Part shown: positions 43,578 to 51,318 of the stretch, in pieces | Layout of the letters: each line of letters begins with the position of its first letter | Numbering within the stretch: the stretch's first letter is position 1 | Assembly: GCA_026014685.1 (NCBI GenBank) | Contig: JAOZHW010000023.1 | Location: forward strand, 1 to 64,000 | Source of the DNA: Candidatus Bathyarchaeota archaeon | GTDB taxonomy: Archaea; Thermoproteota; Bathyarchaeia; Bathyarchaeales; Bathycorpusculaceae | Length of the DNA: 64,000 bases | Reading direction: 5' to 3' | Program-made: the position numbers and the translations under genes | Notes under the pieces: model-generated | What the model saw: only the letters and a program-made list of their open reading frames with translations | Databases searched by the model: none | What the model was told of the DNA's origin: nothing

Positions 43578-44417
43578 TTATTTTGAGTACGCTTCGACGA
43601 GGTCACGGGCAGTGATTATACCTACCAGTTTGTCGTCTTTCACTATGGGTAGTCGCCTGATGTGCTTTAGCGCCATAGTTGCAGCCGTTCTATGAATACT
43701 CGTACCTGCGGCTATGACTGTAAGCGGCGAGGAACATTCAGGTCCTACAGATGTGAACAGCGGTTTGCCTGTAGCTAAAAAATTAGTCAGCAAGTCTCGT
43801 TCAGTGAAGATGCCGAAGGGTTCACCTTTTTTTGTGATTATGACGCTGCCGATGCGCTGTCGACCCATGGTTTTTGCGACATCAAAAACTGATGTTTCCT
43901 CGTCTGCGGTAACTACCTCTTTGCTCATGAATTGGTCGACTTTAACCTCTGTTTCTGGGACATCCGGTAAGCTTTTGATCAGATCAGAAGCTGTAATGAT
44001 GCCGACAAGTTCCCCCGCATCAAAAACTGCAAGCCTGCCTTTTTTGCTGATCATCTGCCTAGCTACATCTTTAATTTTCGTAGTCACAGATATGCCTGAG
44101 AGAGGAAATGACATGACGTCTTCGACTTTTTCGTCCCTCAAAAAGAGTCCCAAAGCCAGAACTTTAGTCAGCAAATCTCGTTCTGTAACTATTCCGACGG
44201 GGGTTCGGTATTTCATGACGATAAGGCTGCCGATGTGTTTGCTGCCCATCAAACGGGCGGCTTCATCAAGCGAAGCGTCAGGAGTGATAGTTTCAACGTT
44301 TGGGCTCATGAGTTCTTTAGCTGTTTGGTAGAGGGGTAGATCGCGTTTGTACTGTTCGTATGCTATGTCAACGACGCTTGGCAACTTTCTTTTTACTTCT
44401 TCTTGAGGTGTCGCCAA
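43578..44417 (-). CDS. Four-CBS-domain protein
   Basis: 279 residues with four CBS repeats in two pairs: LMSPNVETITPDASLDEAARLM, DVMSFPLSGISVTTKIKDVARQM, FMSKEVVTADEETSVFDVAKTM and GPECSSPLTVIAAGTSIHRTAATM, each ending in a GIxTxRDL or similar strand. Bateman pairs bind AMP, ATP or SAM and act as energy sensors. No catalytic domain is attached, so it should regulate a partner. Start TTG 44417. Alone on its strand between PRC and surface protein genes. Confidence 0.92.
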   Translation of the reverse strand: MATPQEEVKRKLPSVVDIAYEQYKRDLPLYQTAKELMSPNVETITPDASLDEAARLMGSKHIGSLIVMKYRTPVGIVTERDLLTKVLALGLFLRDEKVEDVMSFPLSGISVTTKIKDVARQMISKKGRLAVFDAGELVGIITASDLIKSLPDVPETEVKVDQFMSKEVVTADEETSVFDVAKTMGRQRIGSVIITKKGEPFGIFTERDLLTNFLATGKPLFTSVGPECSSPLTVIAAGTSIHRTAATMALKHIRRLPIVKDDKLVGIITARDLVEAYSK

Positions 44418-47021: not shown

Positions 47022-47153
47022 ACATAACTAACATTAGCTGTAAGCCGCCTGCGATTGATTTGTGAATCAATCTTGTTTTGCAGTAATCCGCCTTTGGGCT
47101 TAGTAATTTTCTACTTTCAATCATAGCTATTCCTAATCAGCTATTCTTCAAGT

Positions 47154-47879
47154 CTAGTTATAAGCTTTTAGAAGAATTCTCTTCTTCATAAAGAATAATG
47201 TAATCAAAGGAATTACTACTAATAAAGGCAAGGTCCACAGGAAAGGATATTCTGGAACGCTTGGAGAAGGAGCAGAAGTCTGACCAATGGTTATTGTTTG
47301 AGTATCGGTCCAGTCACTCTCAGTTAAATTGTGGAACGTTCCTCCAAAATATAGGTCGGAAAGAGTTTTGGGTTTGTCGTAGTATCCCGCTACAGCTTTA
47401 ACTTGAAAGTCCTCTTTACCTCCGTTCGGTACATTAAAGCTTGAGTCTAAAATAAGAGTAATAATTGTCGTAGACTCAGGATTTGACGCTAATACTGTTT
47501 TAGTCGTTCTTCCATCGCTCCAAACAATACTCCAGTCTTCAAAATGTCCCTTTGTTCTCACACTATAATACAATTGAATTATAGTTCCATTATCAAGTGT
47601 TATTGGCGCAAAGGGTTGATTTGTTACCACAACATCAATTGTTCGGTTCTCAACATAGTTTCCCCCACTGCTTTTAGTTACTTGTTGCCCAGTAAAAGCG
47701 TCAGTTGTTGTCCAAGTTGTTACAGGCACATCATAAGAACGGTCAACAAACTTTACTGTAAATTGAGGCGGTGATAGATTGGGAATTGACTGAGCATTGG
47801 TTGTCTCACTCATTATCGGAACAAATGCAGCTAAGATAACTACAAGAAATAAAGATAAAGCGTTTCTTGTTTTCGCCAT
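47154..47879 (-). CDS. Secreted protein with C-terminal PEF/CTERM-like anchor
   Basis: 241 residues: signal peptide (ALSLFLVVILAAFVPIMSETTNA), a beta-rich outer domain (VKFVDRSYDVPVTTWTTTDAFTG; DFQVKAVAGYYDKPKTLSDL), a Pro/Ser linker and a terminal SVPEYPFLWTLPLLVVIP helix followed by KKRI. That VPEYP-helix-basic end is typical of archaeal surface proteins that are anchored or processed by archaeosortase-like enzymes. A likely cell-surface protein of unknown ligand. It lies just outside the rnpB-linked element. Confidence 0.7.
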   Translation of the reverse strand: MAKTRNALSLFLVVILAAFVPIMSETTNAQSIPNLSPPQFTVKFVDRSYDVPVTTWTTTDAFTGQQVTKSSGGNYVENRTIDVVVTNQPFAPITLDNGTIIQLYYSVRTKGHFEDWSIVWSDGRTTKTVLASNPESTTIITLILDSSFNVPNGGKEDFQVKAVAGYYDKPKTLSDLYFGGTFHNLTESDWTDTQTITIGQTSAPSPSVPEYPFLWTLPLLVVIPLITLFFMKKRILLKAYN

Positions 47880-48024
47880 ACTACGGTATTAGCGCCTAAC
47901 ATGTTATATAATTTACTTATTGTACTTACTGTAGCGAGCGTATTGTCGGCGGCAACCCTTGTGGTAGCTCGCTCCCTACTTTTTACTTCTTCAACGATGG
48001 CGAAAGAGGGCAGAAATAGGCGCA

Positions 48025-48057
48025 TTGGGTTGGTGTATTGGCAATAACCCGCCTTCT
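48025..48057 (+). repeat. Distal attachment-site copy (rnpB 3' end duplicate)
   Basis: Identical to 50958-50990 except for T instead of C at 48030. That single change would break a C-G pair in the P1 helix of RNase P RNA, so this copy is the non-functional leftover of the site. Identity stops sharply at 48057/50990, apart from a short CTGTG echo. Confidence 0.8.
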
Positions 48058-48177
48058 CTGTGCAGTAATTTTTCGTATTGTTGGTTTGGCTCATACTTTA
48101 TTCACCAAAGACTAAACGGTGGCGTTCTAGATATAAGCTTTATCTGTGTGTTTTAGCCAAATACACGGGGTGGTTAG

Positions 48178-48327
48178 TTGACTCAAACTGTTCTTCTCAA
48201 AATCTCAACAAGAAAAGGCTCAAGAATAGAAAGTTTACCCCTAAAAAAGCTACAAACAATAGCCAAAGAAAAACACAAATTCTGGTCGCTAGAAGGAGAC
48301 TTTCTGATACTGAAAGCTTACTCATAG
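48178..48327 (+). CDS. Small ORF in the integrated element (49 aa)
   Basis: TTG 48178 lies seven bases after GGGGTGGT, and GATATAAGCTTTA (about 48128-48140) fits a TATA box. The product begins MTQTVLLKISTRKGSRIESL and ends FWSLEGDFLILKAYS: basic, no Cys, no membrane helix. It points away from the recombinase. It may be a small DNA-binding or antitoxin-like protein, or a leader for the hairpin downstream. Longer ORFs in other frames over these bases look like artefacts. Confidence 0.4.
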   Translation: MTQTVLLKISTRKGSRIESLPLKKLQTIAKEKHKFWSLEGDFLILKAYS

Positions 48328-48345
48328 ATGCTATCCCTAAGCGGT

Positions 48346-48475
48346 TTTGGGACGTGCAACTGACAGAGCCCTTGCGTGCGGGGAGGTATCCTTTAGGATG
48401 GGGTCCTCCGCTACGCGAGGTGTCAGTTGCCCCAAACCCAAACGGAAAGCGGAGCGACCCGCGCAAGCGGGAGCG
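48346..48475 (+). other. G+C-rich nested hairpins inside the integrated element
   Basis: TTTGGG (48346-48351 region) and CCCAAA (48431-48436) enclose GCAACTGACA (48356-48365) paired perfectly with TGTCAGTTGC (48421-48430); inside, CTTGCGT pairs with ACGCGAG and GGAGG with CCTCC, and ATCC-TTTA-GGAT forms the tip. A second hairpin CCCGC-GCAA-GCGGG follows (48458-48471), with a GNRA tetraloop. This is much richer in G+C than the surrounding element and probably encodes a structured RNA or a DNA fold. Confidence 0.6.
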
Positions 48476-48479
48476 ACGC

Positions 48480-49667
48480 TTATGTGGAATGTGTTTGATA
48501 ACAAGGCGGACAAAATTTTTTCTTAAAAATTAAGCCAGCTTGCTTTACACATCCAGTGCATAGTAGTTTTCCACAGTTTTCACAAGGAACTAAGTCCCTT
48601 ATCAGAACCTTCTGATTACATAAAGGGCAGTAGACTTTCTCACGCCAAACCTTTCCTGACGATGCTAAAACTGTCCTGCTATGAATAAGCCCGTCGGACA
48701 TTTTCTGGTCAAAAACCCATATTGGAACACTAACAAAATAATTCTTTAAGAAGGAAATTTCATATTTACGTGGAACATAAAGTCTATCATAACCTGTTAC
48801 CCCTCCGTAACCGCCTCGATTTTGGTAATACTGCTTGTATCTTCGGGTATTTTTTCGTATGATATAATCAAATGCTAACTCTTTTGCTTCATAAAAATTA
48901 GAAATATTTGGTCGAAGGATCTCAACCTTAAACTTTCCTTCTGTTTCAAGAACGTAATCAGTCACGGGTCTGTTAACAAATTCATTTGTAAGTTCAGAAT
49001 CGTCGCTGACAATATCTCTAGTAATACCATTGATTAATAGAACCCCTCTATCTTCGAACACCAATGGCGGATTCCTTACGGCCCCTCTTAAAATATATTC
49101 AAAAAAATAATAGGGATAAAACGTTAATTCACTATTATGATGGTCTCCAAAATTTACGTTTACGGTAAAAGAGTTCTTGATTGCGAGTGCTGTATTATTT
49201 ACTATTTCTTCCTTTGAAACACTTTTGCTCTCATATTTAAACCACAAACTCATAAAGTCCCTTTCAATCCGTTGAACTTCTTCCTCAGTCTCAGCAATGC
49301 TTAGAGTTTCTACGTTTGAATTCAACCCACTATACGTTAAATTAGCCGACCCCGATATTGCGTGTCTTTTGTCTGAGAGATAGATTTTCGCATGAACGAA
49401 CACACTGTTATCACTCGTTTTCTCTTTGTCGAGTATTAAGATGCGCAAATTTGCATTCATACATGCATTTAATATTTTTATTGACTCGATGTTATAATCA
49501 ACTCTGCTTGTTATTATTCTGACATCAATGCCCTTTTGAGAAAGATGAGCAAGCAACTCTGCATATTCCTTGCCTAACCAAGGAGTTATTACCCAAACAG
49601 ACTCCTTTGCGTTATCTATTAAAGGTCTGATTTTTGAGCCAGCATTTGTACCAGAATAAGTTTTCAT
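48480..49667 (-). CDS. PLD-fold nuclease-like protein with C-terminal zinc ribbon
   Basis: 395 residues. The phospholipase-D HxKxxxxD motif is VHAKIYLSDKRHAISGSANLT (about residues 92-112); only one HKD is seen, so an active enzyme would be a dimer, as in Nuc-like nucleases and several restriction enzymes. A middle domain of about 180 residues (FYPYYFFEYILRGAVRNPP; NPPLVFEDRGVLLINGI) is unknown to me. The C-terminus has YCPLCNQKVL, CENCGKLLCTGCV and FCPPCY, a treble-clef or zinc ribbon pair. As cargo of a mobile element it could be a defence nuclease. Codon use is A+T-rich. Confidence 0.75.
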   Translation of the reverse strand: MKTYSGTNAGSKIRPLIDNAKESVWVITPWLGKEYAELLAHLSQKGIDVRIITSRVDYNIESIKILNACMNANLRILILDKEKTSDNSVFVHAKIYLSDKRHAISGSANLTYSGLNSNVETLSIAETEEEVQRIERDFMSLWFKYESKSVSKEEIVNNTALAIKNSFTVNVNFGDHHNSELTFYPYYFFEYILRGAVRNPPLVFEDRGVLLINGITRDIVSDDSELTNEFVNRPVTDYVLETEGKFKVEILRPNISNFYEAKELAFDYIIRKNTRRYKQYYQNRGGYGGVTGYDRLYVPRKYEISFLKNYFVSVPIWVFDQKMSDGLIHSRTVLASSGKVWREKVYCPLCNQKVLIRDLVPCENCGKLLCTGCVKQAGLIFKKKFCPPCYQTHST

Positions 49668-49815
49668 GCTACCCTTGTCCTTGATATTCTTAGATTAATA
49701 TGTTCAAAATTTAAGAGTTAAGGATTAAAAATACATACTGAGCGAGCACTTCTCAAATCGATTTTAGCCAACTCGTGCCAAGGTCACGGGACATTTAAAA
49801 ATACCCCTAAGGGAG

Positions 49816-50952
49816 TTATTCACTTAGTGATTTAGCAAATTTTACTAATATACTAAGTGCTTTTGTCATGTCGGGTGTCATCTCTGTGACTGATTGCTGA
49901 GTTTCAGTTTGCTGGATTGTTTGTTTTTGTTGTAAATCCTCTAAAACTGCCACCATTGGATATGCTTTCAGGTATGCATCTTTTAGCTCTTCATCAGTTG
50001 GTAAGCTGTAAGCATCCCGACTATTGATTAATTTATGACCTAAAACCTGGTCAATCCAGTTAGTAGGCATACCGCCCTTTTCTAACTGTGTCTGCAATCG
50101 CTTGCGTAGACTATGCGCTGACATTCTAAATTCACCTATTTCATTGAAAGCGTCGCTAATTATGTGGGTTGCACTTATACGATGCATATGCTGAACATTC
50201 CCTGATACCCATTTCCTAAATAGAGGGCTCGAAGGAGTTATTTTTTCTGGAATTATTTCCCTGTTCCATTTTGAACCCTGTTCACGTTTTCTAAAATATT
50301 CCCTTAGTGCATCAATAGCTTCTTTACCGATGAAGGTTTTAGTTAAAAGGTTAGTTTTTTGCGATATCAAATTAATCTGTATAGGGCAAATTCCTTTTTC
50401 GATTTGTTCAGGTATGTTTCCGCATTTTAAAGCTACGATGTCACTAATTCTTAACCCTGTATCTTTGGCAAATAGAATAAGTGGTTTACTTTGAAAAGAC
50501 AGCTTATTATTTCGGCTTAAGGCTTTTCGTATTGCATCATCGGTAGCTCGTTTTACTCCCTCACTGTCTCCTGTGGGGTAGTCGCCTTTACGCATCACTA
50601 AGGGAACATAATGTAGCTCGAAAAATGAGCGGATAGACGCCCAAATTACCTGTAACGTTGCAGCCTTAAAGCCCTGTTTCCGTTGGAGTGCTATAAATTG
50701 GTTAAGTTCACTTTCATAGTGTCTACGTATTTTCATATCTGGATCAATGCATTCTTTGAGTCTTTCGCTTAGAATGATATCAGGAGTTTTCCCAAGGTAT
50801 TCACAGTATTTAACAAAGTATTTGAAGTATCGTTCCGCTGTTTTTTCGTTACGGTTGCTAAGCTCCTTTTGCCAATAGAGCAAGGCTTCACTGTTTAGAA
50901 TAACAGAAGGTGATACCATTAAAACATCAGGTATCTTCTGTTCATCTGACAA
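49816..50952 (-). CDS. Tyrosine recombinase/integrase
   Basis: 378 residues with a SAM-like N-terminal core-binding domain (ERYFKYFVKYCEYLGKTPD) and a catalytic domain: Arg in KDTGLRISDIVAL, HSLRKR (His and second Arg), LGHKLI (second His) and Tyr in NSRDAYS. A Gln-rich tail (QQKQTIQQTETQQS) follows. It is the enzyme expected to insert and excise the element at rnpB. The TTG at 50950-50952 lies nine bases from the end of rnpB, so read-through from the rnpB promoter may be what expresses it in the integrated state. Confidence 0.9.
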   Translation of the reverse strand: MSDEQKIPDVLMVSPSVILNSEALLYWQKELSNRNEKTAERYFKYFVKYCEYLGKTPDIILSERLKECIDPDMKIRRHYESELNQFIALQRKQGFKAATLQVIWASIRSFFELHYVPLVMRKGDYPTGDSEGVKRATDDAIRKALSRNNKLSFQSKPLILFAKDTGLRISDIVALKCGNIPEQIEKGICPIQINLISQKTNLLTKTFIGKEAIDALREYFRKREQGSKWNREIIPEKITPSSPLFRKWVSGNVQHMHRISATHIISDAFNEIGEFRMSAHSLRKRLQTQLEKGGMPTNWIDQVLGHKLINSRDAYSLPTDEELKDAYLKAYPMVAVLEDLQQKQTIQQTETQQSVTEMTPDMTKALSILVKFAKSLSE

Positions 50953-50957
50953 GGGTT

Positions 50958-50990
50958 TTGGGCTGGTGTATTGGCAATAACCCGCCTTCT
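50958..50990 (+). repeat. Attachment-site copy within rnpB 3' end
   Basis: This copy overlaps the last 30 bases of the RNase P RNA gene plus three bases outside. It keeps full pairing with the 5' strand of helix P1 (51255-51268), so rnpB remains intact after integration. Confidence 0.8.
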
Positions 50991-51268
50991 GTTGTCTGTG
51001 GCATTCGGCTAATCGGGCTACCCGCGCCTTCCGGCAGATACTTCATCGGCGACTGTTTGCCCTTTCCACATGCAGGACGGCCGTTTCACCGTTTCCACTC
51101 CAGCGGACTCTGCATCACAAATGCGTCATAGCCATATCTGGGTGGACGTTTCGTTTCTGCTCCGTTGCCAAACCTCTCGGTCTGTACCCTGAGGGCACTG
51201 CACTTCTGCGTGTGGGCGGAGTTTCCTCACCCCTAAAGGGGCGATAGCCACACACCAACACACCAGCC
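50961..51268 (-). ncRNA. rnpB: RNase P RNA
   Basis: About 308 nt on the minus strand. The ends pair as helix P1: GGCUGGUGUGUUGG at the 5' end with CCAAUACACCAGCC at the 3' end. Universal core sequences are present: GAGGAAACTCCGCCCA (complement of 51213-51228), the GGTGAAACGG segment (complement of about 51080-51095) and ACAGAAGGCGGGTTAT (complement of 50978-50993). A TATA-like CCTTTATC (complement of about 51297-51304) lies 27 bases before the 5' end. It is the catalytic RNA that trims tRNA 5' leaders. Exact ends are good to within a few bases. Confidence 0.93.
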
Positions 51269-51318
51269 CACATTGAAATGCACAGCCGTAACCGATAAAG
51301 GTAGCCGTCCATGTCCGC

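Follow-up and report, generated by a model that had tools for sequence, protein, structure and literature searches.

In the window, by which we mean the whole 64,000-nucleotide stretch of DNA analyzed, the sequence that forms the 3′ end of the RNase P RNA gene, rnpB, reappears about 2.9 kb away, and a tyrosine recombinase gene lies between the two copies. Is this the trace of an integrative element that used rnpB as its target, as a first-pass annotation of the window had proposed? The window (G000:C23) belongs to an archaeal assembly of 2.3 Mb in 23 contigs, whose named near relatives are the Candidatus Bathyarchaeota metagenome-assembled genomes (MAGs) palsa_989, bog_990, DYS_1, palsa_986, and CSMAG_2318.

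The repeat at rnpB and the interval that it bounds

The rnpB gene was recognized on the minus strand with the Rfam model RF00373 (51263-50966; 188.4 bits against a cutoff of 84). As the first-pass annotation had described, a direct repeat of 33 nt covers its 3′ end (50958-50990) and returns at 48025-48057, with 32 of 33 positions (97%) identical and a spacing of 2,933 nt, so that the final ~30 nt of rnpB are common to the gene and the element. No other direct repeat of at least 18 nt occurs within 46.5-52.5 kb, and downstream of rnpB, the highest repeat score reached 30, compared with 12 in shuffled sequence, which rules out a chance origin. The features of the interval, named according to the reading that we favor, are as follows:

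50960-51269 (approximate, with the full P1 stem), minus strand: rnpB, archaeal RNase P RNA, probable integration target (RF00373; 15-pair P1; single copy)
50958-50990, minus strand: attL, the rnpB 3′ end (CR-V/P4 strand and P1 3′ strand), defined by the 33-nt repeat
48025-48057, minus strand: attR, probable leftover rnpB 3′ end with a P1-breaking change (repeat and P1 pairing)
49816-50952, minus strand: tyrosine recombinase, catalytic part int(C) (PF00589, 1.9e-15; frame open from 50990)
48480-49667, minus strand: PLD-family nuclease with a C-terminal zinc finger-like region, probable defense cargo (PF13091, 2.8e-22; PF09565, 1e-5)
48335-48490, no strand assigned: long GC-rich hairpin at the end of the element cargo (MFE -79.8, z -5.8; blastn copies)

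With the near copy (attL), all 15 P1 pairs can form; with the far copy (attR), 14 of 15 form and one becomes a C-A mismatch, in agreement with the annotation's claim of a single P1-breaking change in the distal copy. A second full rnpB, which had been named as another possible source of the repeat, was looked for and excluded: the assembly holds one copy of the gene, and gene duplication therefore does not account for the repeat.

The interval from 48025 to 50990 is AT rich (38.3% GC compared with 44.8% for the window), and the only genes recognized in it were those of the PF00589 recombinase and the PLD-family nuclease; no virus or provirus structural or replication genes were recognized there. 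The recombinase retains a complete active site, with R168, K199, H280-x-x-R283, H306, and Y315 invariant in subfamily A. By sequence, its closest solved structures are XerA/XerC/XerD recombinases (4a8e, E = 4.5e-14; 5hxy, 8.8e-12), from which it differs in being element borne, with an attP, rather than a dif resolvase. The nuclease matched best to the DrmC model in a defense library (2.7e-15) and is probably defense cargo; its homologues occur sporadically, on contigs other than that of rnpB. The hairpin had no Rfam match and is either a dispersed hairpin repeat or a structured RNA; further species of the genus carry related copies (L104, L049, L047, and L050), including one inside the G022 element.

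The repeat pair, the intact rnpB, the intact catalytic residues, the AT-rich cargo, and the recurrence of paired sites in relatives described below lead us to conclude, with high confidence, that the 2.93 kb from 48025 to 50990 make up an integrative element that entered the rnpB 3′ end by means of its own tyrosine recombinase. The attP of such an element would duplicate the final ~33 bp of rnpB, and site-specific recombination between attP and the chromosomal rnpB 3′ end would join rnpB to the element-supplied end, restoring the gene at attL and pushing the original end to the far side of the element as attR. Upon excision, the circle would contain 48058-50957 and a single copy of the repeat, which corrects the earlier description of a circle joining 48057 to 50958.

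Recurrent integration at rnpB in Bathyarchaeia

We surveyed 91 rnpB genes from 90 related Bathyarchaeia genomes, 81 of them with at least 1.3 kb of downstream sequence, and assigned integrases in these relatives with HMMs built for this analysis. An integrase lay within 200 bp of the rnpB 3′ end at 25 of these 81 loci; upstream of rnpB, the same survey found one integrase fragment only, ~1.5 kb away. The earlier suggestion that RNase P RNA is a rare target is thus wrong for Bathyarchaeia, where it is a frequent one. Among 60 related genomes, the closest relatives of the window integrase (G017 and G022, 51% identity) both lie at the rnpB 3′ end, and integrases of the same subfamily are also found at rnpB in G128 and G147. 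A pattern describing the rnpB 3′ end matched in 112 of 257 genomes of the class, in ~25 of them in at least two copies, and the reversed-pattern control matched in none.

In a tree, the rnpB-adjacent integrases form at least four separate clades: clade A is the window type, clade B comprises those of G049, G059, and G197, clade C those of G041, G060, G110, G198, and others, and clade D, which is convergent, those of G142, G151, and G154; G166/G169/G124 represent a further clade at rnpB. In the C/D part of the tree, integrases located away from rnpB stand between the rnpB-adjacent ones. Of the top 30 matches to family C from a sample of the phylum, only the three located beside rnpB had the att sequence, and the site therefore follows position, not merely family.

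Several of these integrases have a far att copy of their own, at 4.9 kb in G041, 6.7 kb in G110, 4.0 kb in G159, 6.6 kb in G198, and 46.7 kb in G049. In G022, the far copy lies at 7.6 kb, where the contig ends in it, with 25 bp common to the end of contig C80; in G059, it is a 20-bp match at ~18 kb; in G060, it lies at 5.05 kb and is directly followed by a second integrase, in tandem. The assemblies are MAGs, with possible misjoins or breaks at repeats, and att pairs on separate contigs (G124, G133, G166, and G169) are assumed partners. The proposal that an RNase P RNA gene serves as an integration site is supported by the same-subfamily integrases at the rnpB 3′ end of other species and by the unrelated integrase clades that lie there with paired repeats of their own. 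The second att of G103 was rejected as a partner of the G103 integrase, since it lies 144.8 kb away on the 5′ side of rnpB.

Three further arrangements were recorded. G060:C12:99809-105934 and C19:36746-46267 probably represent a tandem array of family-C elements, each att being followed by its own integrase, with the link between the contigs assumed. G049:C10:65211-111953, the 46.7-kb rnpB-to-att interval, has a family-B integrase at one of its ends, and close to the opposite end lies an integrase of family C. Locus L194 (DYS_1 contig JAOZHZ010000028.1, about 216 kb) carries a window-type integrase (48%) after an rnpB-like att with one inserted base, which sits not at rnpB but just past the stop codon of a protein gene, a possible secondary target.

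The first-pass annotation had also suggested a comparison with empty sites, which succeeded for other members. G124 has an integrase after rnpB. Its far att is located on another contig, and the flank there matches, at 86% over 1.5 kb, the rnpB flank of G123, a member of the same genus that has no integrase. Similarly, a gene that G118 has ~45 bp after rnpB is located past the far att in both G159 and G110, and the flank that G060 shares with G041 begins 11 bp past the last att. For the window's own insertion, no base-exact empty site was found among the related genomes compared, because none of them is a close enough relative. Downstream of rnpB, the window shows synteny with relatives at the gene level only, with a CBS-domain gene that is found near rnpB in G012 (+1689, 81%), G025 (+3984), and G022:C80 (+4342, across contigs):

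43578-44417, minus strand: CBS-domain gene, probable native neighbor of rnpB (downstream of rnpB in other species too)

In IMG/VR, the att pattern had no matches, no excised circle or free attP was found, and integrase searches returned distant matches only.

These data bear on another explanation, namely, that the repeat arose by partial duplication or gene conversion of rnpB and that the integrase is there by chance. It would be in keeping with the 60- to 112-nt rnpB 3′ fragments that lie elsewhere in G012, G015, G022, and G003 without a detected integrase, but it leaves to coincidence the integrases of several clades at 25 of 81 rnpB 3′ ends, their matching far-end repeats, and the single fragment in the upstream control, and we consider it highly improbable. 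Integration at rnpB remains our preferred reading.

Fragments of the rnpB 3′ end of this size were located at G012:C27:115970, G012:C13:155707, G015:C3:267894, G022:C25:5166 and 16061, G029:C68:23004, and G003:C27:22241. Several share their 5′ limit, at the same rnpB position (GGAAAGGGCAAACAG), and no integrase was detected in the surrounding stretches scanned; they could be rearrangements, or att remnants of other integrases that have been displaced. A “150-nt rnpB” in G003, considered as a minimal RNase P RNA, was rejected as the product of an assembly gap.

An integrase gene apparently divided by integration

The first-pass annotation placed a tyrosine recombinase beside the rnpB end, and such an open reading frame is present (50952-49816, PF00589), its first base 6 nt outside the repeat; position 50952 is probably not its real start, however, because the frame is open back through the repeat. 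At the far end of the element, an ATG at 48094 on the minus strand opens MSQTNNTKNYCTEK, which reads into attR in the frame that is also open for the integrase at attL. When the far-end flank was joined to the near-end integrase, as in a reconstructed circle, a single 403-amino-acid (aa) open reading frame resulted from ATG 48094, and integration therefore apparently cuts the integrase gene. Two features belong to this end:

48025-48094, minus strand: candidate int(N), from ATG 48094 (MSQTNNTKNYCTEKAGYCQYT..), in frame with int(C) in the reconstructed 403-aa circle frame (junction frame; homologous stubs in relatives)
48130-48142, minus strand: TATA-like box ~39 nt upstream of ATG 48094, putative int promoter (conserved in an alignment of homologous element ends)

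In relatives, the corresponding end carries a TATA-like box ~40 nt ahead of an ATG, together with a similar stub (G022, MSEKAKKLLSPKAGY; G012, MSEDSKKLLSPKAGY); the conserved box is a putative int promoter. On this reading, attP would lie inside the 5′ end of the integrase gene, integration would part the promoter and int(N) (48142-48025) from int(C) (50990-49816), and reexcision would be limited unless a complete integrase arrived.

Alternatively, attP could lie outside an uncut integrase gene that starts at TTG 50952 or at a later ATG, with the open frame through att a coincidence. The integrases of G022, G017, and G128 and those of family B, which start after att in another frame or position (~57 bp after att in family B), are compatible with this arrangement, which has more difficulty with the 403-aa junction frame with its ATG and conserved upstream stub, with the absence of a start codon between att and the conserved integrase core in G166, and with the fact that most family-C integrase frames are open through att. 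We regard an uncut gene as possible but less likely than not. In G041 and G198, the integrase is not in frame with the nearest attR, and the G041 att interval may be composite. We infer that the gene was likely split on integration in the window and that splitting is not a rule across relatives, since the G022 and G017 integrases are not fused in frame. A description of all families as suicidal was rejected, as family A proved to be mixed and family B did not conform to it.

Known suicidal integrases are assigned to one PF16795 clade (PMC8371274). The window element resembles the SSV-type systems (SSV1, pTN3, and pT26-2; PMC8371274) in that attP apparently lies within the 5′ part of int and integration would leave the catalytic part, int(C), at an RNA gene, apart from int(N). 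It differs from them in its target (rnpB, not a tRNA gene), in a very short int(N), in an in-frame fusion that is not kept in all relatives, and in its integrase, which is PF00589 rather than PF16795 and has HxLR rather than KxxR. Neither the PF16795 domain nor the R..KxxR..Y signature was found in the window integrase, only PF00589 and an HSLR motif; nor was the pNOB8-type R..YxxR..Y signature, HxxR standing at 280-283 instead. The window integrase therefore appears to work like the suicidal integrases without being a member of their clade.

An earlier insertion, present mobility, and significance

Beyond attR, the segment 47170-47074 could be aligned, through the att core, to the right end of the element in G022 (score 75 compared with a shuffled maximum of 28; blastn E = 1e-7), and the region between attR and this decayed site (47074-48024) is AT rich (38.8% GC):

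47074-47170, minus strand: decayed second element end, with a TATA-like box, a stub from ATG 47124 (MIESRKLLSPKADY), and a degenerate att core at ~47091 (alignment to the G022 element end)
47154-47879, minus strand: 241-aa probable membrane or secreted protein, between attR and the decayed att (open reading frame in the older segment)

Both observations indicate that 47074-48024 is a remnant of an earlier element and that the locus is a small array whose site has been used at least twice. A palindromic repeat of 26 to 39 nt also occurs at three places in the genome: in the window (47945-47983), at G000:C5:11390-11428, near a paralogue of the 241-aa protein, and at G000:C22:117115-117140, within 0.5 kb of another integrase.

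The younger element may itself be a fossil that integrated by this route once, is now immobile, and would be remobilized, if ever, only by a related complete integrase. The att mismatch, the content of only two genes, the separation of the integrase from its putative promoter, and the decayed neighboring remnant point in this direction; the retention of all catalytic residues, the 32/33 identity of the att copies, and the open frame across the reconstructed attP point away from it. Immobility is a real, if tentative, possibility.

Integration targets named in a review of archaeal recombinases are tRNA genes, intergenic regions, and protein genes (PMC8371274); the main texts of this review and of a thaumarchaeal survey (PMC6563490) make no mention of RNase P or rnpB. 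The open-access literature searched yielded no description of integration at rnpB, a scope that does not prove the absence of such a report. The elements described here share with those that target tRNA and tmRNA genes (genomic islands sensu Islander/TIGER and archaeal tRNA-gene elements) a tyrosine recombinase beside att, direct repeats at both ends, a structural RNA gene whose 3′ end is duplicated and restored, and tandem arrays; they differ in that the target is RNase P RNA.

In the broadest interpretation, for and against which we see the case as evenly balanced, rnpB would be a standing integration hotspot in Bathyarchaeia, reached independently by at least four clades, and in some of these, the element-borne rnpB 3′ sequence would double as integrase N-terminal coding sequence (“AGYxQxTSP” in frame 0 or “RVTxxTPA” in frame 1); self-splitting would then have originated independently in PF00589 integrases. 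The case would be a second, testable one of integrases that sever their own gene when they integrate, a behavior so far assigned to one PF16795 clade. Because elements supply the rnpB 3′ end at each insertion, the 3′ end of RNase P RNA would be repeatedly replaced from mobile DNA in these archaea. The gene of an essential, universally conserved ribozyme would be added to the repeatedly used targets of archaeal mobile DNA. For Bathyarchaeia, which are a major uncultured group from which few mobile elements are known, rnpB offers a fixed place at which to seek more of them.
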